This document shows, piece by piece, positions 45,692 through 56,902 of a stretch of 64,000 nt of DNA. Source of the DNA: an uncultured Tateyamaria sp. (GTDB lineage Bacteria > Pseudomonadota > Alphaproteobacteria > Rhodobacterales > Rhodobacteraceae); NCBI RefSeq assembly GCF_947488715.1, contig NZ_CANLAG010000001.1:372001-436000 (forward strand). The letters run 5' to 3'. The stretch's first letter is position 1. Each line of letters opens with the position of its first letter. The position numbers were made by a program, and so were the translations under genes. The notes under the pieces were generated by a model that saw only the letters and a list, made by a program, of their open reading frames with translations, had not been told where the DNA came from and did no database searches.

Positions 45692-46585
45692 TCAGCGTTC
45701 AGACCCGGTTGCATCGGCCGCCCAACTCCAGGTCAAGGGCGACTTGCGCTTGAGCGCGCCGCTCAGGTGCTGGCGCATCCTATAGGACGCATCCACGATG
45801 TTTCCGCGTTCCAGCAAGGACAGTATTTCTAGATGTTCGGTGCATTGTTCGACCAACCGCTCGCGGTTGATCTCGGCGCGGTATTCCATCAACCGGCGCA
45901 TACGGTTGACCCGTTGCAGGGCCATCAGAAAGAACGGATTTCCGGACAGTTTGATGATCTCTTCGTGGAACAAGGAGCCGTTTTCCAACAGCGACTGCCC
46001 GTGCGCGACATCCATGTCTATTTCAAGCATGCCTTCCTGTATGCGCCTTTGCTCGTCCAACACTTTGCGGTCGAGTTCGAATGAAGGTTCCAGCATGGCG
46101 GCAGGTTCGATCGCCAACCGGAACCTGTAGATCTCGTCAAAGGCTTCGGGGGTTTTGGCGACGGGCAGGAAGCGCCAGCCATATCCTTCTTTGCGTTCTG
46201 CCCACCCCTCTCTGGCGGCGCGCACCAAGAGCTCTCCAACCTTGGCCTTTGTCCATCCATACCGTTGCCGCAGCGCCTGTTCGGTGACCTCTTCTGCGAT
46301 TTCATTGGTCAGCCAATCGTGTGCCAACCTTTGATAGTCGCTGGTTTCTGCGTCGTCCGTAGCGGCCAATTGATCTTTGATCGTCTGGGGCAGTTTATCC
46401 GCGACGAAGTATCCACGGTTTTCCTGCCGCACCAGAACGTCCTGTTGTTCCAGGTTGACCAGTGCCTCGCGCACGGGGGTTCTGGAAACGCCATAGCGGT
46501 CAGCGACCTGTTGCGCGCTGATATGCTGGCCGCTGTCCAATGCGCCGGAAAGAATGTCGTGAAGAAGCCGTTGTGAAATCTTCAT
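45692..46585 (-). CDS. GntR-family regulator with two predicted winged-helix segments
   Basis: About 297 residues. The first winged helix is residues 1-63 (LHDILSGALDSGQHISAQQV then SRTPVREALVNLEQQDVL). A second, more diverged winged-helix-like segment spans about 84-140 (LAHDWLTNEIAEEVTEQALR, WTKAKVGELLVRAAREGW, GYGWRFLPV). A C-terminal FCD-type ligand domain follows (RFRLAIEPAAML, LFHEEIIKLSGNPFFL). It is divergent from the tctC operon, with a 10-bp-arm inverted repeat between them, so it is the likely local repressor. The ATG at 46585 is used because earlier in-frame codons read as intergenic DNA. Confidence 0.88.
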   Translation of the reverse strand: MKISQRLLHDILSGALDSGQHISAQQVADRYGVSRTPVREALVNLEQQDVLVRQENRGYFVADKLPQTIKDQLAATDDAETSDYQRLAHDWLTNEIAEEVTEQALRQRYGWTKAKVGELLVRAAREGWAERKEGYGWRFLPVAKTPEAFDEIYRFRLAIEPAAMLEPSFELDRKVLDEQRRIQEGMLEIDMDVAHGQSLLENGSLFHEEIIKLSGNPFFLMALQRVNRMRRLMEYRAEINRERLVEQCTEHLEILSLLERGNIVDASYRMRQHLSGALKRKSPLTWSWAADATGSER

Positions 46586-46982
46586 CGAAAGGTCGCTTGT
46601 TCGCACCGCTGTTGGCCTTCCCACGTCACAAACCACGCGCAGATTGCACGTTACTCCGTCAGCATAGCTGCATTTGTGCTTTTCTATAATCAAAAATGCA
46701 AACTTTTTGCATTTTGCATGGTCGAGAAGATCGGATTCTTACCAGAAAATTGGATTTTTGGTTCGGGAGGTTGGTCGGTCAGGGCGCGGGTTGAGGGGGC
46801 GTAAACCTGAAATATGTAGCAAAAACAATTAAATGTGCGGAATCTTCTCCAAGGTGGGTGCCGTTTTGTGGTTTTGTGAGTTCCAAAATCCAGAATAAGA
46901 TTGGCTTTTTATAACCACATGTGCAATTTTCCTGACCAGCGCGGGAATCGCGCGTCGAAAAACACCATCTGGGAGGAACCAC
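46586..46982. other. Divergent regulatory region (397 bases, no gene)
   Basis: AT-rich stretch between the GntR gene and tctC. It contains the inverted repeat at 46693-46715 and several TTTTTG/CAAAAA runs. No open frame here resembles a protein. It must hold the promoters for both directions. Confidence 0.7.
46693..46715. promoter_or_regulatory. Operator candidate with 10-bp arms
   Basis: AAAATGCAAA (46693-46702) and TTTGCATTTT (46706-46715) are exact inverted repeats separated by CTT. A further TTTTGCAT half-site overlaps the right end. The site is 108 bases before the GntR start and 268 before tctC. Confidence 0.6.
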
Positions 46983-47969
46983 GTGTTTATGAACCTTACT
47001 CGCATTGGCGCATTCGCCATTGCAGCGTCCGTGGCTGGCGTGACGACCGCGTCAGCCGAATTCAAAGCTGAAAGCCCTCAGTGCATCGCGCCGTCTAACC
47101 CCGGCGGCGGGTGGGACTTTATCTGCCGGACCACCGCGAAATACCTGTTTGACCTGGGTGTCATCGAGGACTCGATGCAGGTCACCAATATGTCGGGTGG
47201 CGGTGGTGGTGTTGCGTTTGCGCATGTCACGCAGGAACGCAACGAAGACAACAACCTGATCGTGGCGGCATCCATGTCGACCAGCGCGCGGATCGCGCAG
47301 GGCATCTATGAAGGTGCCGAGCAGGACGATGTCCATTTCCTTGCGACCTTTGGGGCGGAATACGGTGCCATCGCGGTAAACGCGGATTCAAAATATCAGA
47401 CGCTCAACGAGATGATGGATGACATCCTGGCCGATCCAAAGTCTGTTGGCATCGCCGGTGGGTCGTCTGTTGGCAGCTTTGACCATATCAAGCCAATGTT
47501 GCTTGCCCGCGAGGCTGGCCTGGCAGACGTCACGCAGATGAAATACGTGTCCTACTCTGGCGGCGGCGAAGCCATGACAGGTCTTCTTTCTGGTTCGGTC
47601 GAGGCCTTGTCCGGCGACTTTTCCGAGATGCTGGGTTTCCTTGAATCCGGTGACATCCGGATTCTCGCGATCATGGGGCCGGAGCGCCTGAAGAACTTTC
47701 CAGACATTCCGACAGCCAAAGAGCAAGGCTACGACGTGATCGGGGCAAACTGGCGCGGTCTCTACATGCCGGCAGGTGCCTCGGATGAGGCCAAGGCGTT
47801 CTGGAGCAATGCCATCCAGACAATGGTTGCCGATCCGGGCTTCCAGGGGACGCTCGAGGCTGCGGCCATGGCGCCCTTCAACAACTTTGGCGACGACATG
47901 TACAACTTCGTTGCTGGCAGCATTGAAGACGTGACCAAGCTCTCCAAAGAGATTGGCATCATCGAGTAA
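46983..47969 (+). CDS. tctC: Tripartite tricarboxylate transporter substrate-binding protein
   Basis: A 328-residue periplasmic binding protein of the TctC/Bug family with a signal peptide (AFAIAASVAGVTTASA). Family features are PSNPGGGWDFICRTTAKYL at the first ligand loop, GGGGVAFAHV, and the second-lobe GGSSVGSFDHIKPML and MTGLLSGSVEALSGD. GTG at 46983 is favoured over ATG at 46989 because GGGAGG lies 7 bases before the GTG. It is the first gene of the accessory operon, and its product delivers the imported acid to TctAB. A strong hairpin follows its stop. Confidence 0.93.
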   Translation: MFMNLTRIGAFAIAASVAGVTTASAEFKAESPQCIAPSNPGGGWDFICRTTAKYLFDLGVIEDSMQVTNMSGGGGGVAFAHVTQERNEDNNLIVAASMSTSARIAQGIYEGAEQDDVHFLATFGAEYGAIAVNADSKYQTLNEMMDDILADPKSVGIAGGSSVGSFDHIKPMLLAREAGLADVTQMKYVSYSGGGEAMTGLLSGSVEALSGDFSEMLGFLESGDIRILAIMGPERLKNFPDIPTAKEQGYDVIGANWRGLYMPAGASDEAKAFWSNAIQTMVADPGFQGTLEAAAMAPFNNFGDDMYNFVAGSIEDVTKLSKEIGIIE

Positions 47970-47978
47970 GTGCTCTGT

Positions 47979-48010
47979 CTGGCTGACCCGCCATGCTGTG
48001 GGTCAGCCAG
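47979..48010 (+). other. Intercistronic stem-loop between tctC and tctB
   Basis: Perfect 11-bp stem ctggctgaccc (47979-47989) / gggtcagccag (48000-48010) with a 10-base loop and no T-run. This position, directly after a binding-protein gene, is typical of elements that stabilise the upstream mRNA and raise binding protein over membrane subunits. Confidence 0.6.
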
Positions 48011-48036
48011 CACTCAAGACATCCTGGGAGGACAAA

Positions 48037-48468
48037 ATGAGCGACCGCATCTTTGGCGGTGTCGGGTTGGCGCTTGCCATCTTCTACATCTGGGCCGCGT
48101 CCACGATCAAACTCACGTTCATGGTTGATCTCGTTGGACCAAGAACATTTCCCTACATCATTGGCGCGGGGCTGGCGTTGACCTCTGTTTACATGATGAT
48201 CCGTCCCGACGACGAACCGGACTGGCCAAGCGCAGGCGGTGTGATGGAGATTTTGGCCGCGACAGTTGTCATGCTGCTTTATGGTCGCTTTCTGCCCGAG
48301 GTCGGCTTCATCGTTTCGACTGCTTTGGCAACGGCATACCTCACGTGGCGGCTTGGTACTTTGCCGCAGTGGTCGGTGGTCGTCGGCGCGTCCACGTCCG
48401 TGGGAATTTACATCGTCTTTCATCTCATTCTTGGCCTGTCGTTGGCCAAGGGCCCGCTTGGTTTCTAG
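48037..48468 (+). CDS. tctB: Tripartite tricarboxylate transporter small membrane subunit
   Basis: A 143-residue membrane protein with four hydrophobic segments (IFGGVGLALAIFYIWAAS, VGPRTFPYIIGAGLALTSVY, ILAATVVMLLYGRFL, VVVGASTSVGIYIVFHLILG). The motif GPRTFPYIIG is the TctB hallmark. GGGAGGAC precedes the ATG at 48037. It lies between tctC and tctA, 11 bases ahead of tctA. Confidence 0.92.
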   Translation: MSDRIFGGVGLALAIFYIWAASTIKLTFMVDLVGPRTFPYIIGAGLALTSVYMMIRPDDEPDWPSAGGVMEILAATVVMLLYGRFLPEVGFIVSTALATAYLTWRLGTLPQWSVVVGASTSVGIYIVFHLILGLSLAKGPLGF

Positions 48469-48479
48469 GAGCAAGACTG

Positions 48480-50024
48480 ATGGAAACTCTCTCTCTTCTT
48501 GCCGGTGGGTTCGCGCTTGCCTTCACGGCGCAGAACCTGATGCTTGCCCTGATCGGTTGCTTTATCGGTACAATTGTCGGTGCCTTGCCCGGTCTTGGCC
48601 CATCGAATGGTGTGGCAATCCTGATCCCGATCGCGTTTTCGCTTGGCCTGGGGCCGATACCATCGCTGATTTTGCTGTGCAGTGTCTACTACGGCGCCCT
48701 CTATGGGTCGCGTATCAGTGCCATTTTGCTGAACATTCCGGGTGACGATGCTGCGATGATGACTTGTCTGGACGGTCATCCAATGGCGCAAAAGGGTATG
48801 CCGGGGCAGGCGTTGACCCTGTCGGCCATCGCATCCTTTGTGGGCGCATTCATTGCCACCTGGGGACTTGTTTTTCTGGCGCCTCAACTGGTCAAGATTG
48901 CGTTGTTGTTTGGCCCGGCTGAATACTTCGTTCTGTATGTCATGGCCTTTGCCACGCTGGGCGGCATCATGAGCAACAATCAGGGCAAGGCGCTGTTTGC
49001 AGTGGCGGTTGGTCTCGCCATCGCCATGGTCGGCAGTGACAGCCAGACGGGGTCGCAACGTTTCACCTTTGGTCAGATCTACCTCTTTGACGGGGTCAGT
49101 TTTCTGGTTGCGGTTGTCGGGCTGTTTGCCTTGTCCGAGGTGTTCTATTTCCTCGAAAAGCACCACAGCGGGACACGGGGCGATGCCAAGCAGATGAAGA
49201 TCGGCAAGCTGATGCCCAAGTGGAGCACGATCAAGAGCTGCATCCCGACCATGGGCCGCACCACCGTGATCGGGTTCATTTGCGGGGTTCTGCCCGGATC
49301 GGGTGCGACGCTTGGGTCCTTCCTGTCCTATTCGCTGGAAAAGGCGACCGTGGACCGGGACGGCAAGAGCTTTGGCACCGGTGATCCCCGCGGTGTTGTG
49401 GCACCTGAGGTCGGGAACAACGCCGCTGCGGGCGGTTCGCTGGTTCCGATGCTGTCGCTCGGTATCCCCGGTTCCGGGACAACCGCCATTCTGCTTGCAC
49501 TGCTTTTGCAGTTGAACATCACACCCGGTCCGCTTTTGTTTTCCAAAAACCCTGACATCGTCTGGAGCCTCATTGCCTCGCTTTTCATTGCGAACGTGAT
49601 GCTGCTGGTGATGAACGTGCCGCTCGTCGGGATCTTCACACGGGTTCTGTTGGTTCCGACGCGGATCATGATGCCGATTGTTGCGATGATCTCGGTTGTG
49701 GGCGTCTACAGCCTGTCAGGCTCGACCGTGGACGTGATGACGATGGTTGGCTTTGGCCTTTTGGGCTGGCTCTTTCGCAAGTTGGACGTGCCGATTGTGC
49801 CGATCATCCTCGGGATCCTTCTGGGCAACGAGATGGAGGTCAACCTGCGTCGCGCCATGACGATCTCGGATGGTGAGTGGTCCATTCTGGTGGGCAGCCC
49901 GCTTGCGATCATCCTCTGGGCCATCGCGATCACAGGCTTCCTGTTGCCCGTCATCCTCGGACGCCGCGTGAAGAAGCGCATGGCGGCAGAACTGAACGAA
50001 ACAAATGCGGCATCGGACACATAA
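48480..50024 (+). CDS. tctA: Tripartite tricarboxylate transporter large membrane subunit
   Basis: A 514-residue permease with about a dozen helices. The signature GALPGLGPSNGVAILIPIAF appears near residue 35, YYGALYGSRISAILLNIPGD at about 76-95, and the second-half copy GVLPGSGATLGSFLSYSLEK with PEVGNNAAAGGSLVPMLSLG. These duplicated PG-containing loops are diagnostic of TctA. With tctC and tctB it forms a secondary, ion-driven high-affinity importer for carboxylates. Confidence 0.95.
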   Translation: METLSLLAGGFALAFTAQNLMLALIGCFIGTIVGALPGLGPSNGVAILIPIAFSLGLGPIPSLILLCSVYYGALYGSRISAILLNIPGDDAAMMTCLDGHPMAQKGMPGQALTLSAIASFVGAFIATWGLVFLAPQLVKIALLFGPAEYFVLYVMAFATLGGIMSNNQGKALFAVAVGLAIAMVGSDSQTGSQRFTFGQIYLFDGVSFLVAVVGLFALSEVFYFLEKHHSGTRGDAKQMKIGKLMPKWSTIKSCIPTMGRTTVIGFICGVLPGSGATLGSFLSYSLEKATVDRDGKSFGTGDPRGVVAPEVGNNAAAGGSLVPMLSLGIPGSGTTAILLALLLQLNITPGPLLFSKNPDIVWSLIASLFIANVMLLVMNVPLVGIFTRVLLVPTRIMMPIVAMISVVGVYSLSGSTVDVMTMVGFGLLGWLFRKLDVPIVPIILGILLGNEMEVNLRRAMTISDGEWSILVGSPLAIILWAIAITGFLLPVILGRRVKKRMAAELNETNAASDT

Positions 50025-50074
50025 CCGATGCGCCAAGACCTGATGGGCTTTGGCAACAAGATAGGAGTAACAAA

Positions 50075-51160
50075 ATGCGTATCATGACACTGCCTTGCGA
50101 TGGCATTGGGCCCGAAATCATGGCGGCCACCCTCGAAGTGGTGGAAGCCGCGAACAAGCGATTTGACCTGGGGCTGACGTTCCACGAGGAGGAGTCCGGG
50201 TTTCCAAGTCTGGAAAAGCACGGGATCACCCTGCGTGATGAAGTGCTTGACCGTGCGCGGACAGAGTTTGACGGCGTGATCCTCGGCACCCAATCGCATA
50301 TGGACTACCCCCCGGTGGCCGAAGGCGGGCGCAATGTCTCGGCCGGGTTCCGCATTGGCCTTGACCTTTATGCCAATGTGCGGCCCGCGCGCAGTCGGGA
50401 TTTCTTGCCAAACAAGGCACCCGGCATGGACCTTGTGATCATGCGGGAAGCGACCGAAGGGTTTTATCCGGATCGCAATATGTTCAAAGGCGTGGGCGAG
50501 ATGATGCCCGACCCTGATATGGCGCTATCGGTGCGCAAGATCACACGACACGGATCGATGCGCATCTGCCGCGAGGCGTTCAAACTGGCCATGCAGCGCA
50601 AGAAAAAGGTGGCTGCAATCCACAAGGCCAATTCGTTTCTGATGACGGATGGTCTGTTCCTCGAATGCTTCCGCACGGTCGCCAAGGATTTCCCCGAGGT
50701 CGAGACCGAAGAACTGATTGTCGATGCTTTTGCCGCCCTTCTGGTGCGCAAGCCGCATGAATATGACGTCGTGGTTGCTACGAATTTCTACGGTGACATC
50801 CTGTCTGATCTGGCGTCGGAATTGTCAGGCTCTTTGGGTCTGGCGGGGTCTATCAATGCCAATGCCGAGACGGGTCTGTGTTGTGCGCAAGCGCAGCACG
50901 GGTCGGCGCCAGATATTCAGGGACAGAATATTGCGAACCCGACATCGTTGATTTTGTCGGCGGCCATGATGCTGATTTGGCTGGGTGAGCAACGGAACAT
51001 TTCAAAGCTCATGGACGCGGGGCAGGCCATTGCTGATGCGGTGGATGCTGTCATCGATAACCCTGCGACACGCACCAGAGACCTTGGCGGCACGGTCAAC
51101 ACCGACGCCTTTGGATCGCTGGTTGCCCAGATGGTTTCCAAAGAGGCCGTTGCCGCTTGA
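50075..51160 (+). CDS. Isocitrate/isopropylmalate dehydrogenase family protein
   Basis: A 361-residue NAD(P)-dependent beta-decarboxylating dehydrogenase. Visible features are the N-terminal DGIGPEIMAATLEVVE, LYANVRPARS, REATEGFYPDRN, the catalytic Lys184 in HKANSF, and metal-binding Asp241/Asp245 in NFYGDILSDLAS. The family oxidises a 2-hydroxyacid with a beta-carboxylate and releases CO2 (isocitrate, isopropylmalate, tartrate, D-malate). The substrate-specific segment REATEGFYPDRNMFKGVG differs from the canonical REnTEGxY of citrate-cycle enzymes, so a non-standard substrate is likely. It follows tctA and precedes the racemase-like gene, with two hairpins between. Confidence 0.9.
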   Translation: MRIMTLPCDGIGPEIMAATLEVVEAANKRFDLGLTFHEEESGFPSLEKHGITLRDEVLDRARTEFDGVILGTQSHMDYPPVAEGGRNVSAGFRIGLDLYANVRPARSRDFLPNKAPGMDLVIMREATEGFYPDRNMFKGVGEMMPDPDMALSVRKITRHGSMRICREAFKLAMQRKKKVAAIHKANSFLMTDGLFLECFRTVAKDFPEVETEELIVDAFAALLVRKPHEYDVVVATNFYGDILSDLASELSGSLGLAGSINANAETGLCCAQAQHGSAPDIQGQNIANPTSLILSAAMMLIWLGEQRNISKLMDAGQAIADAVDAVIDNPATRTRDLGGTVNTDAFGSLVAQMVSKEAVAA

Positions 51161-51171
51161 TGTTTCTCCCT

Positions 51172-51225
51172 GCGGGCAGCTTTGCCCGCCTCTCTTGGCG
51201 GCGGAGCCATTCACGCTCCGCCGCC
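51172..51225 (+). other. Two consecutive stem-loops between the dehydrogenase and racemase-like genes
   Basis: First stem gcgggca/tgcccgc (51172-51189). Second, perfect 11-bp stem ggcggcggagc/gctccgccgcc (51197-51225) with a 7-base loop. Neither is followed by a T-run, so they are more likely mRNA-processing or stability elements than terminators. Confidence 0.55.
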
Positions 51226-51244
51226 CCTTACCAAAGCAAGTGAT

Positions 51245-51913
51245 ATGACCCGTCAGCCCAGGATTGCGTTGATACATGCAACGCGTGTTGCAATTGACCC
51301 CATTGAGGCCGCAGCGACAGTGTTGTGGCCCGAAGCAGAGACCATTTCCATTCTGGAGGAAGGGCTGTCCGTCGACAGGCAAAAGACCCGAGAGCTGTCC
51401 GGTGACATGTTACGGCGTATTGTCGATCTGACCCGCTATGCAGAAGCGTCACAGGCCGACGGTGTCTTGTTTACCTGCTCTGCCTTTGGAGCGGCGATAG
51501 ATCGCGCAAACGCTGAGGCGTGCATTCCTGTCATGAAGCCGAACGAGGCCATGTTCGATGCCGCATTCGCTCATGGTGATCGTGTGGCGATGATCTATAC
51601 CTTTGCGCCCGCTGCCGCGGGGATGGAGGAAGAATTTCGCGAAGCCGCCAGAGAGCGTGGCAGTGATGCGGAGATCACATCCTATTTCTGTGATGGCGCC
51701 CTTGAGGCCAAACGCGCAGGGGACGATACGACACACAACCGACTGATCGCCCAAACCGCGCGCACGATCGAGGGGGCGGATGTTGTCCTGTTGGCGCAAT
51801 TCTCGATGGCGGGCGCCGCGGGTGACGTGCGCAGTGCGACCTCTGTTCCCGTTCTGACAAGCCCCGAAGCCGCGCTGACGGAAATCAAGCGCCGCGTCGA
51901 GTCAAATGGATAA
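51245..51913 (+). CDS. Asp/Glu racemase superfamily protein with a single catalytic Cys
   Basis: A 222-residue protein of the aspartate/glutamate/hydantoin racemase and maleate isomerase superfamily. The first active-site Cys is present in LFTCSAFGAAID (Cys78). The expected second Cys position in the C-terminal half reads LLAQFSMAGAAG, with Ser187. Members lacking one Cys include arylmalonate decarboxylase (which keeps the other one), so a decarboxylase or isomerase rather than a racemase is plausible. It lies inside the carboxylate operon, 9 bases before otnK. Confidence 0.82.
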   Translation: MTRQPRIALIHATRVAIDPIEAAATVLWPEAETISILEEGLSVDRQKTRELSGDMLRRIVDLTRYAEASQADGVLFTCSAFGAAIDRANAEACIPVMKPNEAMFDAAFAHGDRVAMIYTFAPAAAGMEEEFREAARERGSDAEITSYFCDGALEAKRAGDDTTHNRLIAQTARTIEGADVVLLAQFSMAGAAGDVRSATSVPVLTSPEAALTEIKRRVESNG

Positions 51914-51922
51914 GGAAAGCCC

Positions 51923-53200
51923 ATGCAGATTGGCGTCATTGCGGATGATTTTACGGGTGCAAGTGACATTGCAAATACATTGGCCAAAGGTGTCGGTCCC
52001 GAAGGTGGGCTGCGCACGGCGCAGTATGCAGGTGTTCCTGACGGGTCGGCGGATCTGAAAATCGAGGCGGGTGTCATTTCGCTCAAGAGCCGTTCGGCCC
52101 CGGTCGATGAGGCGGTTCGGGACAGTCTGGCGGCCCTCCATTGGTTGCTGCGGCAAGGGTGCACACAGATCATTTTCAAATATTGCTCCACGTTTGATTC
52201 AACGCGGGAGGGCAATATCGGCCCGGTTGCTGATGCATTGGCAGATGAGATGGGCGCGAACGGCGTTGTCGTGTGCCCCGCGTTTCCGACAACGGGTCGC
52301 ACGGTCTATCAGGGGCATCTGTTTGTGAATGATGCGCTGCTGAACGAAAGCGGCATGGAAAATCATCCGCTCACGCCGATGACGGATCCCGACATTCGGC
52401 GCTGGCTAGGGCATCAGACGGCGTCCTCCATCGGTCATCTGCCTTTGACGACCGTGGCGCAGGGACCCGAAAAGGTGCAGGCGGCCTTGCGGGAAGCCAC
52501 GGACCGCTTTGTGGTCGCGGATGCGGTGAGTGACGACGACCTTTTGACCCTCGGTGCTGCCTTGGCGGAGGCACCGTTGATCACCGGCGGGTCGGGCATC
52601 GCGCTTGGTCTGCCTCGCAACTTCCTTGGCCAAACATCACGGCAAGACCGTGTATCTCAGCACCCGGCGATTTCGGGGCCAGCCGCCATTCTGTCCGGGT
52701 CGTGTTCAGGGGCTACGCGCGGGCAAATTGATGCTCATGAAAAGAACCACCCCTGCCTTTCGATTGACGTGCCTGGTGTGATGAACGGGACCGTTTCTGT
52801 CGAAACGCTCGTGGCGTTCTTTGACGCCAATCAGGACAACCGCCCCTTGGTCTATTCCTCTGGCGCGCCGGAACACGTCAGGGACTTGCAGGAACAGTTT
52901 GGCCGCGACGCGGTTGCTGCGAAACTCGATGCCTTGTTTGCGGATACGGCACGCGCGCTGATCCAAAAGGGGTACCGGCGTATCGTTGTCGCCGGGGGCG
53001 AGACGTCAGGGGCCGTAGCCCAAGCCGTTGCACAGGAGCGCGCCGCCCCGGCGATGTTGATCGGCCGCGAAATTGATCCCGGTGTTCCGGTCCTGACTGT
53101 GGGCCGATCCGATCCGGTGGCATTGGCCCTCAAGTCCGGGAATTTCGGCTCTGCGGATTTCTTTGCCAAGGCGCTGGACGTGATGGAAGCCGACACATGA
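51923..53200 (+). CDS. otnK: Four-carbon acid sugar kinase (3-oxo-tetronate kinase-like)
   Basis: A 425-residue DUF1537 kinase. The N-terminal sugar-acid-binding domain starts MQIGVIADDFTGASDIANTL and includes KYCSTFDSTREGNIGPV. The C-terminal nucleotide-binding domain has SGSCSGATRGQI and VVAGGETSGAVAQAV. In the known pathways OtnK phosphorylates 3-oxo-tetronate (from L-threonate or D-erythronate) before OtnC decarboxylates it to DHAP. Its stop overlaps the otnC-like gene by 4 bases, supporting the same pair here. The usual OtnI isomerase and LtnD/DenD dehydrogenase are absent. Confidence 0.92.
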   Translation: MQIGVIADDFTGASDIANTLAKGVGPEGGLRTAQYAGVPDGSADLKIEAGVISLKSRSAPVDEAVRDSLAALHWLLRQGCTQIIFKYCSTFDSTREGNIGPVADALADEMGANGVVVCPAFPTTGRTVYQGHLFVNDALLNESGMENHPLTPMTDPDIRRWLGHQTASSIGHLPLTTVAQGPEKVQAALREATDRFVVADAVSDDDLLTLGAALAEAPLITGGSGIALGLPRNFLGQTSRQDRVSQHPAISGPAAILSGSCSGATRGQIDAHEKNHPCLSIDVPGVMNGTVSVETLVAFFDANQDNRPLVYSSGAPEHVRDLQEQFGRDAVAAKLDALFADTARALIQKGYRRIVVAGGETSGAVAQAVAQERAAPAMLIGREIDPGVPVLTVGRSDPVALALKSGNFGSADFFAKALDVMEADT

Positions 53201-53838
53201 CAGAGGCAGAACAACACTTGCGGCATGACATGGTGCGTTTGTGCCGATCCCTTTTTGACCGTGGTTTCTCGGTCGGGTCGGCGGGGAATGTGTCTGCAAA
53301 GCTGCCGGACGGTATCCTCATGACACCAACAAATTCGACCCTTGGGTCGTTGGAGGCCGAGCGGATTTCCAAGCTCGACGCGGCGGGCAATCACGTCTCC
53401 GGGGACAAGCCCTCGAAGGAAGTGTTTCTGCATCAGGCTTTCCATGAGACCCGCCCGGATGCCGGGGCTGTGGTGCACTTGCATTCGACATGGGCCACAG
53501 CCGTCTCTTGCCTGCTCGACACAGACCCCGATGACTGTATCCCGCAACTGACGCCCTATGTCGTCATGCGCGTGGGGCGTGTTAAACAGTTGCCCTACGT
53601 CAAGCCTGGCGATCCCCGGACCGGGGACATGATCCGCGATCTGAAGGGGGCGTACAGTGCCGTGTTGCTGGCAAACCATGGGCCTGTCGTGACCGGAAAG
53701 AACCTGTTCTCGGCGGTTTGCGCGGCGGAGGAACTGGAAGAAACCGCCAAGCTGGTCGTTGCCCTTCAGGGTAAAAGGACGCGGCACTTGACCGACGCAC
53801 AGGTTGCTGAATTACGGGCCACGTTTGGACAGATATGA
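53197..53838 (+). CDS. otnC: Class II aldolase (3-oxo-tetronate 4-phosphate decarboxylase-like)
   Basis: A 213-residue zinc-dependent class II aldolase/adducin domain. Metal and catalytic residues fit the family: SAGNVSAKL, EVFLHQAFHETRPDAGAVVH with His94 and His96 of VVHLHSTW, Glu75 and the second His at about 161 in LANHGPVV. OtnC removes CO2 from 3-oxo-tetronate 4-phosphate to give DHAP. It is coupled to otnK and followed 10 bases later by the RraA-like gene. Confidence 0.9.
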   Translation: MTEAEQHLRHDMVRLCRSLFDRGFSVGSAGNVSAKLPDGILMTPTNSTLGSLEAERISKLDAAGNHVSGDKPSKEVFLHQAFHETRPDAGAVVHLHSTWATAVSCLLDTDPDDCIPQLTPYVVMRVGRVKQLPYVKPGDPRTGDMIRDLKGAYSAVLLANHGPVVTGKNLFSAVCAAEELEETAKLVVALQGKRTRHLTDAQVAELRATFGQI

Positions 53839-53848
53839 GGACCTTTAA

Positions 53849-54322
53849 ATGAAAACTGCTGACTTGATCGATAGCCATGCTGCGGACCTATCGCTGGTCC
53901 ATCTGCCATTCCGGCAGTTTGGAACCGTGTCGGACTTTGCCGCGCCCATACAGACGATCCGCTGTTTTGAGGACAACACCGTCCTGCGCGCCCAGCTTGA
54001 GACGCCGGGCGAGGGGCGCGTGCTGGTCGTTGATGGCGGCGGATCGACCCGGATTGCCATCCTTGGGGACATCCTTGCCGATCTTGCGATCAAGAACGGG
54101 TGGGCCGGGCTGGTCATGAACGCCGCCATCCGTGACAGCGCTGAGATCAATGCCATGAACACGCTGGTCTTTGCACTTGCCACCAGCCCGGTGAAAAGTG
54201 CCAAGCTGGGATGGGGCGAGGTTGGTGTCGAAGTCAGCTTTGGTGGCGTCACATTTGCGCCGGGCGATTGGGTCTATGGCGACGCGGATGGCGTCTTGCA
54301 CAGCACGAAGAAGCTGGTCTGA
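53849..54322 (+). CDS. RraA-like / HMG aldolase family protein
   Basis: A 157-residue protein of the RraA fold. The sequence GGGSTRIAILGDILADLAIK leads to the D-X20-R-D motif: Asp74, then Arg95-Asp96 in NAAIRDS. In 4-hydroxy-4-methyl-2-oxoglutarate and 4-carboxy-4-hydroxy-2-oxoadipate aldolases this motif binds the divalent metal and substrate. The RNase E inhibitor RraA shares the fold, but the operon context favours a pyruvate-type aldolase or oxaloacetate decarboxylase. It begins 10 bases after the otnC-like gene and precedes the aconitase-family gene by 18. Confidence 0.85.
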   Translation: MKTADLIDSHAADLSLVHLPFRQFGTVSDFAAPIQTIRCFEDNTVLRAQLETPGEGRVLVVDGGGSTRIAILGDILADLAIKNGWAGLVMNAAIRDSAEINAMNTLVFALATSPVKSAKLGWGEVGVEVSFGGVTFAPGDWVYGDADGVLHSTKKLV

Positions 54323-54340
54323 CACCGGATCGCGCCCGTC

Positions 54341-56902
54341 ATGCAATTACAGACCATCAAGAGCGCGGGCCAAGAGCTGCGGGTTGTTGATTTGCGGGCA
54401 GCACTTGGCGGTCGCTTGGACGACCTGCCGGTCTGTATTCGGCTGTTGTGTGAAAATCACATTCGGTCTGGTGCGCCTTTGGAGCCGTTCTTGCAAGGTG
54501 ACGAGACCTTTGAATTTGCGTTCCGTCCCAACCGGTTGCTGATGCATGACACGACGTGCACGCCCGCATTGGCGGATGTGGCCGGATTGCGCGATGCATT
54601 GGCGGGGGCGGGTGTTGATCCGACCGTCCTGTCGCCGACCTTGCCGGTTGATGTGTCCGTTGATCATTCCGTGGCTGTCGATGCTTTTGGGGTACCTGAC
54701 GCCTTGCAACGCAACTTGGCCAATGAATTTGCCCGCAACAGCGAACGCTATGCCTTTTTGAAATGGGCATCCCGCACCATGGACGGTTTGCGCGTTCACC
54801 CACCGGGCAGCGGGATCATGCACACGATCAACCTCGAACAGCTTGCAACGGTTTTGGAGGTTGATCCGGACGGTATTTCGCATCCCGATATGCTGCTGGG
54901 CACGGACAGCCACACGACGATGATCAACGGCATAGGTCTCATGGCGTGGGGGATCGGGGGGCTGGAGGCGGAAAGCGTGATGTTCGGGCAGGCGGTGTCC
55001 CTTGCTGTGCCAAAAACGGTTGGGGTTCGGCTGTCAGGGCAGATGCCGCGGCACATGCTGGCGACTGATCTGGCGTTGGAAATCACACACAGGCTGCGCG
55101 CGTTTGGCGTGACGGGTGAGTTTGTGGAGTTCTTTGGCCCCGGTGTGTCGCAGCTTGGCGCGGATACGCGCGGGGTTGTGGCGAACATGGCACCGGAATT
55201 TGGCGCATCGACCGGGTATTTCCCGGTGGACGCCGAAACGATTGCCTATCTGAAGCGTACGGGGCGAAAGCCGGTCCAATACCAGCATATCGAAGCGGTC
55301 TTTCGCGCGATGGGCCTTTGGTTCGATCCGGATGCTTGCCCGCGCTATGATCGAACGCTTGATCTTGATTTATCGGCTATTTCGCCCGCGATTGCCGGTC
55401 CGCGCCGCCCGCAGGACCGGTGCAAACCGGCGCAAGCCGCCGGGCAGGTCGAGATCGCCATTGGCCGCTCATTGATGCCCATCAGTGCAGACACAACTGC
55501 GGTTCCTGACGGCGCTGTCGGCATTGCCGCTATCACAAGCTGCACCAATACATCCGATCCGAACCTGCTTGTCGCCGCCGGACTTCTGGCCAGAAATGCG
55601 CGCAGACTTGGCCTTGGACCCGCGCCTTGGGTCAAGACGTCACTGGCTCCGGGTTCCCCTTCTGCCCGCAAACTGTTGGACCGTGCGGGCCTGATGGAAG
55701 ATTTGTCCGCTTTGGGGTTCGACATTGTGGGCTTTGGCTGCACGACCTGCATTGGAAACTCGGGTCCATTGCCCGCTGCAATCGAAACTGCGCTTGCCGA
55801 CGGCAAGGCAATTGCCGCAGTTCTATCGGGCAATCGGAACTTTCCGGGGCGCGTGCATCCCAAACTCGACCTTGGGGACCTGACTTCGCCGCCGCTTGTG
55901 ATTGCTTATGCGCTCAAGGGGGATATCGCGGGCGATATTCTGACTGATTCGCTTGGTATCGGCACAGACGGACAGGATGTCATGCTGGAAGATATTTGGC
56001 CCTCACCAGAAGACATCGCTGAGGCGCTCTCAATGGGCTACCGAAGCGAGGATGTGAAAGCCGCTTTTGCCACAGCGGCCCAAGACGCCACATGGTCGGG
56101 GATTGCCACACCGGACACGCCGTTGTTCCCATGGGATCCGGTGTCCAGCTACCTGCGTTGCCCCAAGTTCGCATCGCATCCGCATGGCACAAGGCTGGGA
56201 CGCTACGACGCGCGCGCCCTGATGGTTTTGGGCGACGACGTGACGACCGATCACATCTCTCCTGCGGGGTGGATTGCGCCGAACAGTGCGGCGGGGCAGT
56301 GGCTGATTGCGCGTGGGGGTGATCCAGACAACCTGAATGTCTATGCCGCCTATCGCGGCAATTGGGAGGTTATGCTGCGCGGGTTGTTCACCAACAGATC
56401 GGTGAAAAACCACCTGGCAGAGGGACTTGAGCCCTCAGAAACCATGCTTGGGGATGGGCGTGTCTTGCCCCTTCATGAGGCTGCCAATGAGCTGGAAAAC
56501 AGTGGATTGAGTGCCGTCATCTTTGCGGGCGACCGCTATGGTATGGGGTCAAGCCGCGATTGGGCTGCGAAAGGTGTGGCATTGCTTGGCGTCAAAGCGG
56601 TCATCGCAAAGAGCTTTGAGCGGATCCACCGAACAAATTTGATCGGCATGGGGGTCCTGCCGCTTGAAATCACTGATGGGTTCGACCCCGCAACCGCGCG
56701 GATCGGTCCAGCGGATCAAGTCCTTGTTGACCTGTCTGGCGATGCTCTGACACCGCGCAAAGAAACGGCGATCACTTTGAAGCGGACGGGAAAACCTGCG
56801 GCGAAGATCGCCTGCCGCGCCGCCGTGGAGACGGAGCAAGAGATCGCATTGCTTCGGGTCGGGGGCGTGCTGCCGAATATCCTCGGGATGCATTTACGCT
56901 AG
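54341..56902 (+). CDS. AcnA-family aconitase-like hydro-lyase
   Basis: An 853-residue [4Fe-4S] hydro-lyase. Cluster ligands are Cys401 (TSCTNTSDPN), Cys467 and Cys470 (GFGCTTCIGNSG). Other intact motifs are GTDSHTTMINGIG (about 187-199), GNRNFPGR, DDVTTDHISPAG and YGMGSSRDWAAKG (Arg739), so the swivel domain is complete. The substrate-facing segments differ from AcnA: LLMHDTT (His69) where AcnA has a Gln, and MHTINLE (Thr162) where HQVNLE is usual. It is not likely the housekeeping aconitase. It is the last core enzyme of the operon and probably isomerises or dehydrates the imported acid. Confidence 0.9.
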   Translation: MQLQTIKSAGQELRVVDLRAALGGRLDDLPVCIRLLCENHIRSGAPLEPFLQGDETFEFAFRPNRLLMHDTTCTPALADVAGLRDALAGAGVDPTVLSPTLPVDVSVDHSVAVDAFGVPDALQRNLANEFARNSERYAFLKWASRTMDGLRVHPPGSGIMHTINLEQLATVLEVDPDGISHPDMLLGTDSHTTMINGIGLMAWGIGGLEAESVMFGQAVSLAVPKTVGVRLSGQMPRHMLATDLALEITHRLRAFGVTGEFVEFFGPGVSQLGADTRGVVANMAPEFGASTGYFPVDAETIAYLKRTGRKPVQYQHIEAVFRAMGLWFDPDACPRYDRTLDLDLSAISPAIAGPRRPQDRCKPAQAAGQVEIAIGRSLMPISADTTAVPDGAVGIAAITSCTNTSDPNLLVAAGLLARNARRLGLGPAPWVKTSLAPGSPSARKLLDRAGLMEDLSALGFDIVGFGCTTCIGNSGPLPAAIETALADGKAIAAVLSGNRNFPGRVHPKLDLGDLTSPPLVIAYALKGDIAGDILTDSLGIGTDGQDVMLEDIWPSPEDIAEALSMGYRSEDVKAAFATAAQDATWSGIATPDTPLFPWDPVSSYLRCPKFASHPHGTRLGRYDARALMVLGDDVTTDHISPAGWIAPNSAAGQWLIARGGDPDNLNVYAAYRGNWEVMLRGLFTNRSVKNHLAEGLEPSETMLGDGRVLPLHEAANELENSGLSAVIFAGDRYGMGSSRDWAAKGVALLGVKAVIAKSFERIHRTNLIGMGVLPLEITDGFDPATARIGPADQVLVDLSGDALTPRKETAITLKRTGKPAAKIACRAAVETEQEIALLRVGGVLPNILGMHLR

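Follow-up and report, generated by a model that had tools for sequence, protein, structure and literature searches.

A candidate front end to the 3-oxotetronate (OtnK/OtnC) route in an uncultured Tateyamaria: a co-conserved operon with an isocitrate/isopropylmalate-type dehydrogenase and a racemase-superfamily protein

Several described systems resemble the operon treated here. The L-ascorbate pathway of Ralstonia eutropha (Stack et al. 2020) reportedly runs via 2-carboxy-L-lyxonate and involves a gluconolactonase, a beta-propeller protein, an amidohydrolase lactonase and an oxidative decarboxylase, and the pathway for L-threonate and D-erythronate is said to have been described by Zhang et al. 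2016. Pairs of aconitase-family and Iso_dh enzymes act on 2-substituted malates in the tricarboxylic acid (TCA) cycle, in the leucine pathway and in phosphonate pathways such as that of FR-900098. In the parts of the sources consulted, an aconitase-type step on phosphonomethylmalate is described (PMC7858074), the L-threonate/D-erythronate pathway comprises LtnD or DenD, OtnI, OtnK and OtnC (PMC12540250, PMC10580937), the product of the OtnK/OtnC route is dihydroxyacetone phosphate (DHAP), and the Aldolase_II-type OtnC is tied to the 3-oxo route (PMC12540250). The operon in question occupies positions 46983-56902 of a window (the whole stretch analysed) of 64,000 nt from an uncultured Tateyamaria sp. 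(NZ_CANLAG010000001.1, 372,001-436,000, forward strand). There, nine co-directional plus-strand open reading frames (ORFs) encode TctC, TctB and TctA of a tripartite tricarboxylate transporter (TTT), a dehydrogenase (IDH), an Asp/Glu racemase-superfamily protein (Rac), OtnK, OtnC, RraA and AcnA.

We regard it as fairly probable that this is a substrate-induced catabolic operon in which an imported acid, X, would pass through IDH, Rac, OtnK and OtnC to DHAP. As relatives of Rac join OtnK and OtnC beside other front ends, the operon adds a new front end to the known 3-oxotetronate route, and it is co-conserved and probably devoted to a single substrate. The reactions, their order, DHAP as the end product and regulation by a GntR protein are what we infer from the genes and their neighbours. 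The preliminary description, made from the sequence of the window, had an imported carboxylate funnelled into 3-oxotetronate chemistry by a dedicated catabolic operon; the genomic context supports this and carries it on to DHAP. It also knew of no described pathway with this exact combination of families. Searches of open-licence literature (titles and abstract openings) on the gene set, hydroxycitrate and itatartarate likewise returned no description of these genes together, but do not establish its absence from print.

Gene content and co-conservation

The nine genes are separated, in order, by 67, 11, 50, 84, 9, -4, 10 and 18 bp; the next plus-strand ORF considered follows the operon after 226 bp. 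All nine products score above the Pfam gathering score (TctC, TctB, TctA, Iso_dh, Asp_Glu_race, SBD_N with NBD_C, Aldolase_II, RraA-like, and Aconitase with Aconitase_C). The ORFs, their spacing of -4 to 84 bp and these families confirm the run of consecutive plus-strand genes with short gaps or overlaps first reported, and the DUF1537 kinase and class II aldolase were rightly read as OtnK and OtnC, both passing the curated NCBI equivalog cut-offs. LtnD, DenD and OtnI were not found among the nine genes by NCBIfam and Pfam, which sets the locus apart from a known threonate/erythronate operon.

Loci for comparison were the best 80 of 337 IDH relatives from a scan of named genomes, 22 of them without full 10 kb flanks. 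By their titles, they belong to Rhodobacterales, rhizobia and other alphaproteobacteria, Granulosicoccaceae and other gammaproteobacteria, Pseudomonas, Enterobacterales and Burkholderiales. Counted by tblastn with at least half of the query covered, Rac is present in 71 loci, OtnK in 61, OtnC in 52, RraA in 39 and AcnA in 33; the figures for GntR (65, homologues of 31-83% identity inside the locus), TctC (55) and TctA (55) also take in remote homologues, with identities as low as about 22-30%. In 55 of the 71 Rac-bearing loci, Rac comes immediately downstream of IDH. The search for the same gene set in other genomes, suggested in the preliminary description, thus finds it co-conserved in several classes, and because these genes also lie together in other genera and classes, their grouping exceeds chance. 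AcnA and RraA, previously taken as parts of the pathway, are by these counts accessory; the core is IDH, Rac, OtnK and OtnC, likely leading to DHAP. All four core genes are present, for example, in the locus of Pseudomonas putida NBRC 14671 (L109).

Within the order of the window, sampled with 292 genomes, IDH orthologues of at least 86% identity occur in eight genomes, the window's own included, and Rac orthologues of at least 56% identity occur in exactly the same eight. More distant relatives are found in other genomes of the sample (Rac at 29-34% in five, IDH at 52-55% in seven). OtnK exceeds its cut-off in 130 genomes and in all eight with the close IDH (hypergeometric 0.0014, phylogeny ignored). 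As three other members of the genus among the 292 genomes gave no IDH match, the operon is patchy.

Genes missing from a cluster were also sought in the rest of the genome. The search for OtnC took in ten genomes, covering eight of the 28 loci without it (the other two, L047 and L062, carry OtnC in the cluster), and found it elsewhere for all eight (L036, L042, L049, L054, L079, L080, L082 and L088), at 48-55% identity except in the genome of L042, where it belongs to another cluster copy. OtnK, absent from 19 loci, was found elsewhere in seven of eight genomes searched, at 40-69% identity. The Nioella MAG 4-12 bin holds three copies of the dehydrogenase locus (L042, L063, L066), with transporters of the TRAP, TTT type 1 and TTT type 2 kinds.

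Genes of triose-phosphate metabolism beside relatives of the operon suggest DHAP as its product. Genes for glyceraldehyde-3-phosphate dehydrogenase (GAPDH), pyruvate kinase and triose-phosphate isomerase directly follow OtnC in L096 (Pfam), L094 has pyruvate kinase and triose-phosphate isomerase, and L101, L104 and L105 have pyruvate kinase and enolase (one enolase checked by Pfam). On annotated plasmids, tpiA, gpmA, pyk, GAPDH, ppc and eno accompany IDH in Cupriavidus taiwanensis, tpiA follows OtnC in Rhizobium NXC24, and pyk and GAPDH precede IDH in Paraburkholderia sabiae, with eno further off. In Agrobacterium vitis, fructose-bisphosphate aldolase and fructose-bisphosphatase genes follow OtnC in a Rac cluster without IDH, where the position of OtnK is annotated only as a fragment. 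The methylglyoxal synthase gene mgsA (one checked) occurs in at least 13 of the 80 loci. Family counts obtained by ORF clustering are lower bounds, as the longest ORF was picked, sometimes on the antisense strand.

The dehydrogenase and its partner Rac

IDH has the Arg triad, Tyr/Lys pair and Asp triad of the beta-decarboxylating dehydrogenase superfamily. R93, R103, R124, Y131, K184, D217, D241 and D245 are present and invariant in 21 aligned of 81 sequences; going by the numbering and roles in Thermus 3-isopropylmalate dehydrogenase, we take them to bind substrate (Arg), to act in catalysis (Tyr, Lys) and to bind metal (Asp). The pair D280-I281, presumably a sign of nicotinamide adenine dinucleotide (NAD) use, suggests NAD as cofactor. 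None of the NCBIfam models for 3-isopropylmalate, isocitrate, homoisocitrate and tartrate dehydrogenase was matched at cut-off (best 265.5 versus 409.8 bits), and the two other Iso_dh proteins of the genome share 39% and 37% identity with IDH. Aligned with a solved isocitrate dehydrogenase, IDH carries N87 and S89 at side-chain pocket positions that are Ser and Asn in that enzyme. As this pocket is polar but unlike the isocitrate pattern, the substrate is likely a malate-type acid with a small polar substituent. IDH appears to represent a new subfamily of Iso_dh for which no assigned function was found. An AlphaFold2 (AF2) model of IDH (pLDDT, the predicted local distance difference test, 79.3, below 50 at residues 127-155) was not used further.

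Related dehydrogenases also occur in other settings. Paralogues of 50-55% identity in L026-L033 mostly lie near genes that read as TcuA/TcuB-like, PrpF-like or TTT genes, and are likely part of a tricarballylate/aconitate-type system; TcuA and TcuB are annotated in the similar L127. One cluster on a Bradyrhizobium japonicum plasmid (L126, NZ_CP066352.1) brings together an aconitase large subunit, an isocitrate lyase/phosphoenolpyruvate mutase-family protein and a dehydrogenase of 45% identity, and resembles a biosynthetic locus of the phosphonate type.

Rac was first described as a one-Cys racemase homologue. This is right in the catalytic sense, although the protein itself has three Cys (78, 93 and 149): C78 is the only Cys conserved in all 66 Rac rows, along with T77, H11, H164, F186 and S187, and in a weak alignment (E 0.037) to a solved Asp/Glu racemase, the Cys of VVCTNTM falls on the Ala of LLAQFSM, so that Rac departs from the two-Cys arrangement of Asp/Glu racemases. 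The predicted structure (AF2, pLDDT 91.5) folds like the racemase superfamily, the 50 Foldseek matches viewed being MurI, hydantoin, allantoin and aspartate racemases and arylmalonate decarboxylase at 10-19% identity.

Relatives of Rac accompany OtnK and OtnC beside an FMN alpha-hydroxyacid oxidase (L171, and L167 with OtnK reduced to a fragment), beside a SAF-domain oxidoreductase (L168, L172) and beside an OtnI-like TIM barrel below its cut-off (L169). By such neighbourhoods, Rac belongs with OtnK and OtnC more generally than with this dehydrogenase, and is most likely a proton-transfer enzyme that is a frequent partner of 3-oxotetronate chemistry. With a length of about 460-480 aa, the SAF-domain oxidoreductase (DRL_cat and SAF, over no NCBIfam cut-off) is encoded between TTT and Rac/OtnK/OtnC genes at both L168 and L172, and L189 has a relative of 32-34% identity beside OtnK/OtnC; this enzyme is a candidate for another front end of the 3-oxotetronate route. 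In the Tateyamaria genome itself, a second OtnK (55%) and OtnC (48%) pair on contig C3 (L034:8052-10739) is preceded by a racemase-superfamily gene resembling EutA and arylmalonate decarboxylase, below both cut-offs, and may make up a further OtnK cassette in which the racemase-type partner differs.

Taken together, the proposed route would begin with import of a hydroxylated di- or tricarboxylate X by the TTT system, the operon being induced by its substrate. IDH would oxidise, with NAD, the hydroxyl beside one carboxylate of X, with loss of CO2 from the neighbouring carbon, giving an enediol that would become 2-oxo- or 3-oxotetronate. Rac would then bring about the 3-oxotetronate form by proton transfer (a keto shift or racemisation), OtnK would phosphorylate C4 and OtnC would decarboxylate the product to DHAP. 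RraA may be an optional decarboxylase/aldolase, while the aconitase-family protein and, in relatives, lactonases would convert other imported forms (citrate-like isomers, lactones) to X.

Alternatively, the operon could serve a plain tetronate pathway for threonate or erythronate, in which IDH would be a non-decarboxylating stand-in for LtnD or DenD, Rac would correct stereochemistry, and AcnA and RraA would be passengers. The OtnK/OtnC equivalogs and the Rac clusters with FMN alpha-hydroxyacid oxidase fit such a pathway, as does a 31% Rac relative in L186 that is clustered with LtnD and OtnI, both over their cut-offs. This coexistence of a Rac relative with OtnI also led us to reject Rac as a simple substitute for OtnI. 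We nevertheless consider a plain tetronate pathway improbable: IDH retains the residues for two carboxylates and beta-decarboxylation, AcnA is kept across classes as a distinct subfamily, and CitMHS and TTT transporters point to di- or tricarboxylates.

The HDTTC aconitase-family protein and the likely substrate

The operon AcnA misses the equivalog models for aconitase (TIGR01341, 849.9 versus 945 bits) and for AcnD (TIGR02333, 666.9 versus 1419.85 bits) and scores above cut-off with PRK12881 and PRK09277, two wider models of the AcnA subfamily. A separate housekeeping aconitase with the QDFTG motif, 46% identical to it, is encoded on contig C7, and the operon protein was accordingly rejected as the TCA aconitase of the genome. 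Given this copy and the two other Iso_dh proteins, AcnA and IDH of the operon are dedicated paralogues. In all 36 cluster AcnA rows (the window and 35 loci, L021 and L039 being one contig), HDTTC replaces the QDFTG of housekeeping and the QDATA of mitochondrial aconitase, while most catalytic motifs are retained; the window protein keeps the Fe-S Cys motifs SCTNT and GCTTCIG. Three annotated plasmid clusters also agree on HDTTC, and a Priestia protein has HDTTG. Gln-72 of the QDFTG/QDATA motif is presumably a substrate contact, and the operon protein has His in its place. Two AcnD proteins over the TIGR02333 cut-off (L202, L203) likewise have His there (CHDILG), so that there is a known case in which His goes with a change of specificity.

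In a tree of 41 rows, a 99/95 branch (99% of bootstrap trees) divides 29 HDTTC rows from nine QDFTG aconitases, the two AcnD and the Priestia protein; as the alpha- and gammaproteobacterial HDTTC groups both sit on long branches, a false join of the two is possible. Among the 292 genomes, the codon pattern for MHDTTCxP matches in six, namely five of the eight with IDH plus G287, with no match in a reversed control, and OtnK exceeds its cut-off in all six. The G287 gene (857 aa) has its own TctC, TctA and GntR; a SAF-type oxidoreductase, OtnK and OtnC are encoded some 9 kb away, and no Rac was found at the locus. In G272 the HDTTC gene lies at a locus apart, beside genes for an SMP-30 protein and an amidohydrolase as well as TRAP genes. 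The HDTTC proteins may form a further functional aconitase subfamily, again with no assigned function found.

The transporters of related loci (TTT of two types, ABC, TRAP, CitMHS) and other neighbours give clues to the substrate. CitMHS-family genes occur in at least 12 of the 80 loci by ORF clustering (one checked over its NCBIfam cut-off) and lactonase-type families (Amidohydro_2, Lactonase propeller, SMP-30/gluconolactonase) in at least 21 (one member each checked by Pfam, below NCBIfam cut-offs), and one annotated Rhizobium locus carries a trans-aconitate methyltransferase. Taken with AcnA, these genes speak for a hydroxyacid of citrate or tartrate type and its lactones, and suggest a branched hydroxy-di- or tricarboxylate, or its lactone, as substrate. 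Since oxidative decarboxylation by the core to 3-oxotetronate needs HOOC-CH(OH)-C(OH)(CH2OH)-COOH, X could on chemical grounds be a 2-(hydroxymethyl)tartrate-type acid, an identification we hold to be doubtful.

The same neighbours could instead mean that the operon degrades hydroxycitrate or its lactone (garcinia or hibiscus acid type): lactonases would open the lactone, the HDTTC aconitase would move the hydroxyl, IDH would yield 4-hydroxy-2-oxoglutarate and RraA would split it into pyruvate and glyoxylate, with OtnK and OtnC serving a second substrate. Beyond the CitMHS, lactonase and methyltransferase genes, this is favoured by L190, where AcnA is accompanied by SMP-30, TRAP and amidohydrolase genes while OtnK is absent, and by a plasmid of the Gram-positive Priestia megaterium (L130, NZ_CP127875.1) with two citrate:proton symporters, a lactonase, AcnA (HDTTG), RraA and a 43% IDH, and no OtnK in the 19 kb viewed. 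The usual Rac-OtnK-OtnC genes would, however, be left unexplained, hydroxycitrate is without the hydroxyls needed to reach DHAP, and AcnA and lactonase are both absent from many clusters; we rate this alternative as unlikely, level with the plain tetronate pathway. The weakest alternative is a composite locus, in which TTT, IDH and AcnA would serve a tricarboxylate and Rac-OtnK-OtnC would serve tetronates, with shared regulation because both kinds of substrate are met together (e.g. in plant or algal exudate): AcnA and OtnK/OtnC modules do stand apart in some genomes (L042, L190), but the frequent IDH-Rac adjacency and the clusters of IDH and Rac only (L079, L080, L082), whose genomes have both OtnK and OtnC elsewhere, make it very improbable.

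A number of observations weigh against the route from X through IDH, Rac, OtnK and OtnC to DHAP. Seven of the 80 loci hold none of Rac, OtnK, OtnC, RraA and AcnA (one, L085, is cut at the dehydrogenase), and with OtnK so common in the order, the genes could be co-inherited without forming one pathway. The search of the Plasticicumulans genome (L098) for OtnK gave no match, and in two genomes the putative OtnK found elsewhere has only 40% identity. Triose-phosphate neighbours occur in few of the 80 loci (pyruvate kinase in at least five, triose-phosphate isomerase in at least two, enolase in at least three), the C. taiwanensis stretch viewed shows no OtnK or OtnC, and the presence of mgsA may be plain synteny. 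Besides the Rac relative that coexists with LtnD and OtnI, a Pseudosulfitobacter relative of 40% identity is found among malonyl-CoA genes and not with OtnK, which argues against a universal link of Rac to OtnK/OtnC. In the search of the 292 genomes, three of the eight with IDH gave no HDTTC codon-pattern match.

AcnA chemistry, lastly, has no simple connection to 3-oxotetronate. The preliminary description had the substrate isomerised, decarboxylated and funnelled to a 3-oxotetronate-like or hydroxy-2-oxoacid intermediate. Isomerisation followed by decarboxylation would give a 2-oxo acid R-CH2-CO-COOH; as we found no simple R that leads from there to 3-oxotetronate, the order AcnA, IDH, OtnK is not chemically closed, and this exact series was rejected. 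Routes via 4-hydroxy-2-oxobutanoate, 2-keto-3-deoxypentonate and dihydroxycitrate were rejected on paper chemistry only.

Regulatory region and comparison with described systems

The operon and its flanking features are collected in Table 1. The element ahead of TctC appears conserved and promoter/operator-like. A whole-genome search with it gave one exact match and three more at 3 mismatches (one match in the reversed control), and as a regulon search found no operon beyond 46983-56902. A scan for sigma-70 promoters and terminators gave 1 and 10 sites, versus shuffle means of 3.5 and 13.0.

Table 1 Features of the operon and its upstream region (window coordinates)
Feature	Position	Strand	Basis
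GntR/FCD regulator, divergent from operon	45695..46585, start approximate (ORF opens 46693)	-	PF00392 + PF07729 above cut-off
Promoter/operator-like element ATTGGCTTT-N10-ATRTGCAAT	46900..46927	+	spotted by eye in relatives' divergent intergenic regions
TctC, substrate-binding protein of TTT importer	46983..47969 (GTG 46983 or ATG 46989 start)	+	PF03401; GGGAGGAA upstream
TctB	48037..48468	+	PF07331
TctA	48480..50024	+	PF01970
IDH, probable NAD-type beta-decarboxylating dehydrogenase, isocitrate/isopropylmalate family, unnamed subfamily	50075..51160	+	PF00180
Rac, Asp/Glu racemase-superfamily protein, one conserved Cys	51245..51913	+	PF01177
OtnK, 3-oxo-tetronate kinase	51923..53200	+	NF043035 523.6 bits, cut-off 350
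OtnC	53197..53838	+	NF043034 303.5 bits, cut-off 250; Aldolase_II
RraA-family protein, accessory; decarboxylase/aldolase or unknown	53849..54322	+	NF006875 191.4 bits, cut-off 136
AcnA-family hydro-lyase, HDTTC subfamily, accessory	54341..56902	+	PF00330/PF00694; HDTTC at residue 69

Perhaps, though we put this short of an even chance, the operon represents an alpha-, beta- and gammaproteobacterial pathway that takes a natural branched polyhydroxy di- or tricarboxylate (with its lactones), an acid common in plants or algae but overlooked, to 3-oxotetronate and DHAP by means of the HDTTC aconitase and the new dehydrogenase subfamily. If true, the acid-sugar pathways of DUF1537/OtnK would extend to carboxylates handled by TCA-like enzymes, and functions would follow for an aconitase subfamily called AcnA in annotated plasmid records and for an Iso_dh subfamily without a specific name. 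It would also mean that roseobacters, rhizobia, pseudomonads and plant-associated enterobacteria use an environmental carboxylate that is unlinked to these genes in the literature searched. Calls of 'aconitate hydratase AcnA' with HDTTC probably do not denote TCA enzymes where a separate QDFTG aconitase exists.

Compared with AcnD, the 2-methylisocitrate dehydratase of TIGR02333, the window AcnA shares His at the Gln-72-equivalent position but differs in its score far below the cut-off, its HDTTC motif and its tree branch. The pairs of aconitase-family and Iso_dh enzymes represent the same two families on malate-type acids, although those are anabolic or belong to the TCA cycle, whereas the pair in this operon is an optional one, linked to OtnK/OtnC. 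In the case of the L-ascorbate pathway, related clusters carry families of the same lactonase types, while the operon in the window has no lactonase genes itself; PdxA there contrasts with the IDH-like enzyme here, and OtnK/OtnC, which belong to this operon, are not known from that pathway. The L-threonate/D-erythronate pathway has in common with the operon OtnK and OtnC over curated cut-offs and, presumably, the last two steps to DHAP; unlike it, the operon brings a decarboxylating IDH-like enzyme, Rac, RraA, AcnA and a TTT importer to this shared end.

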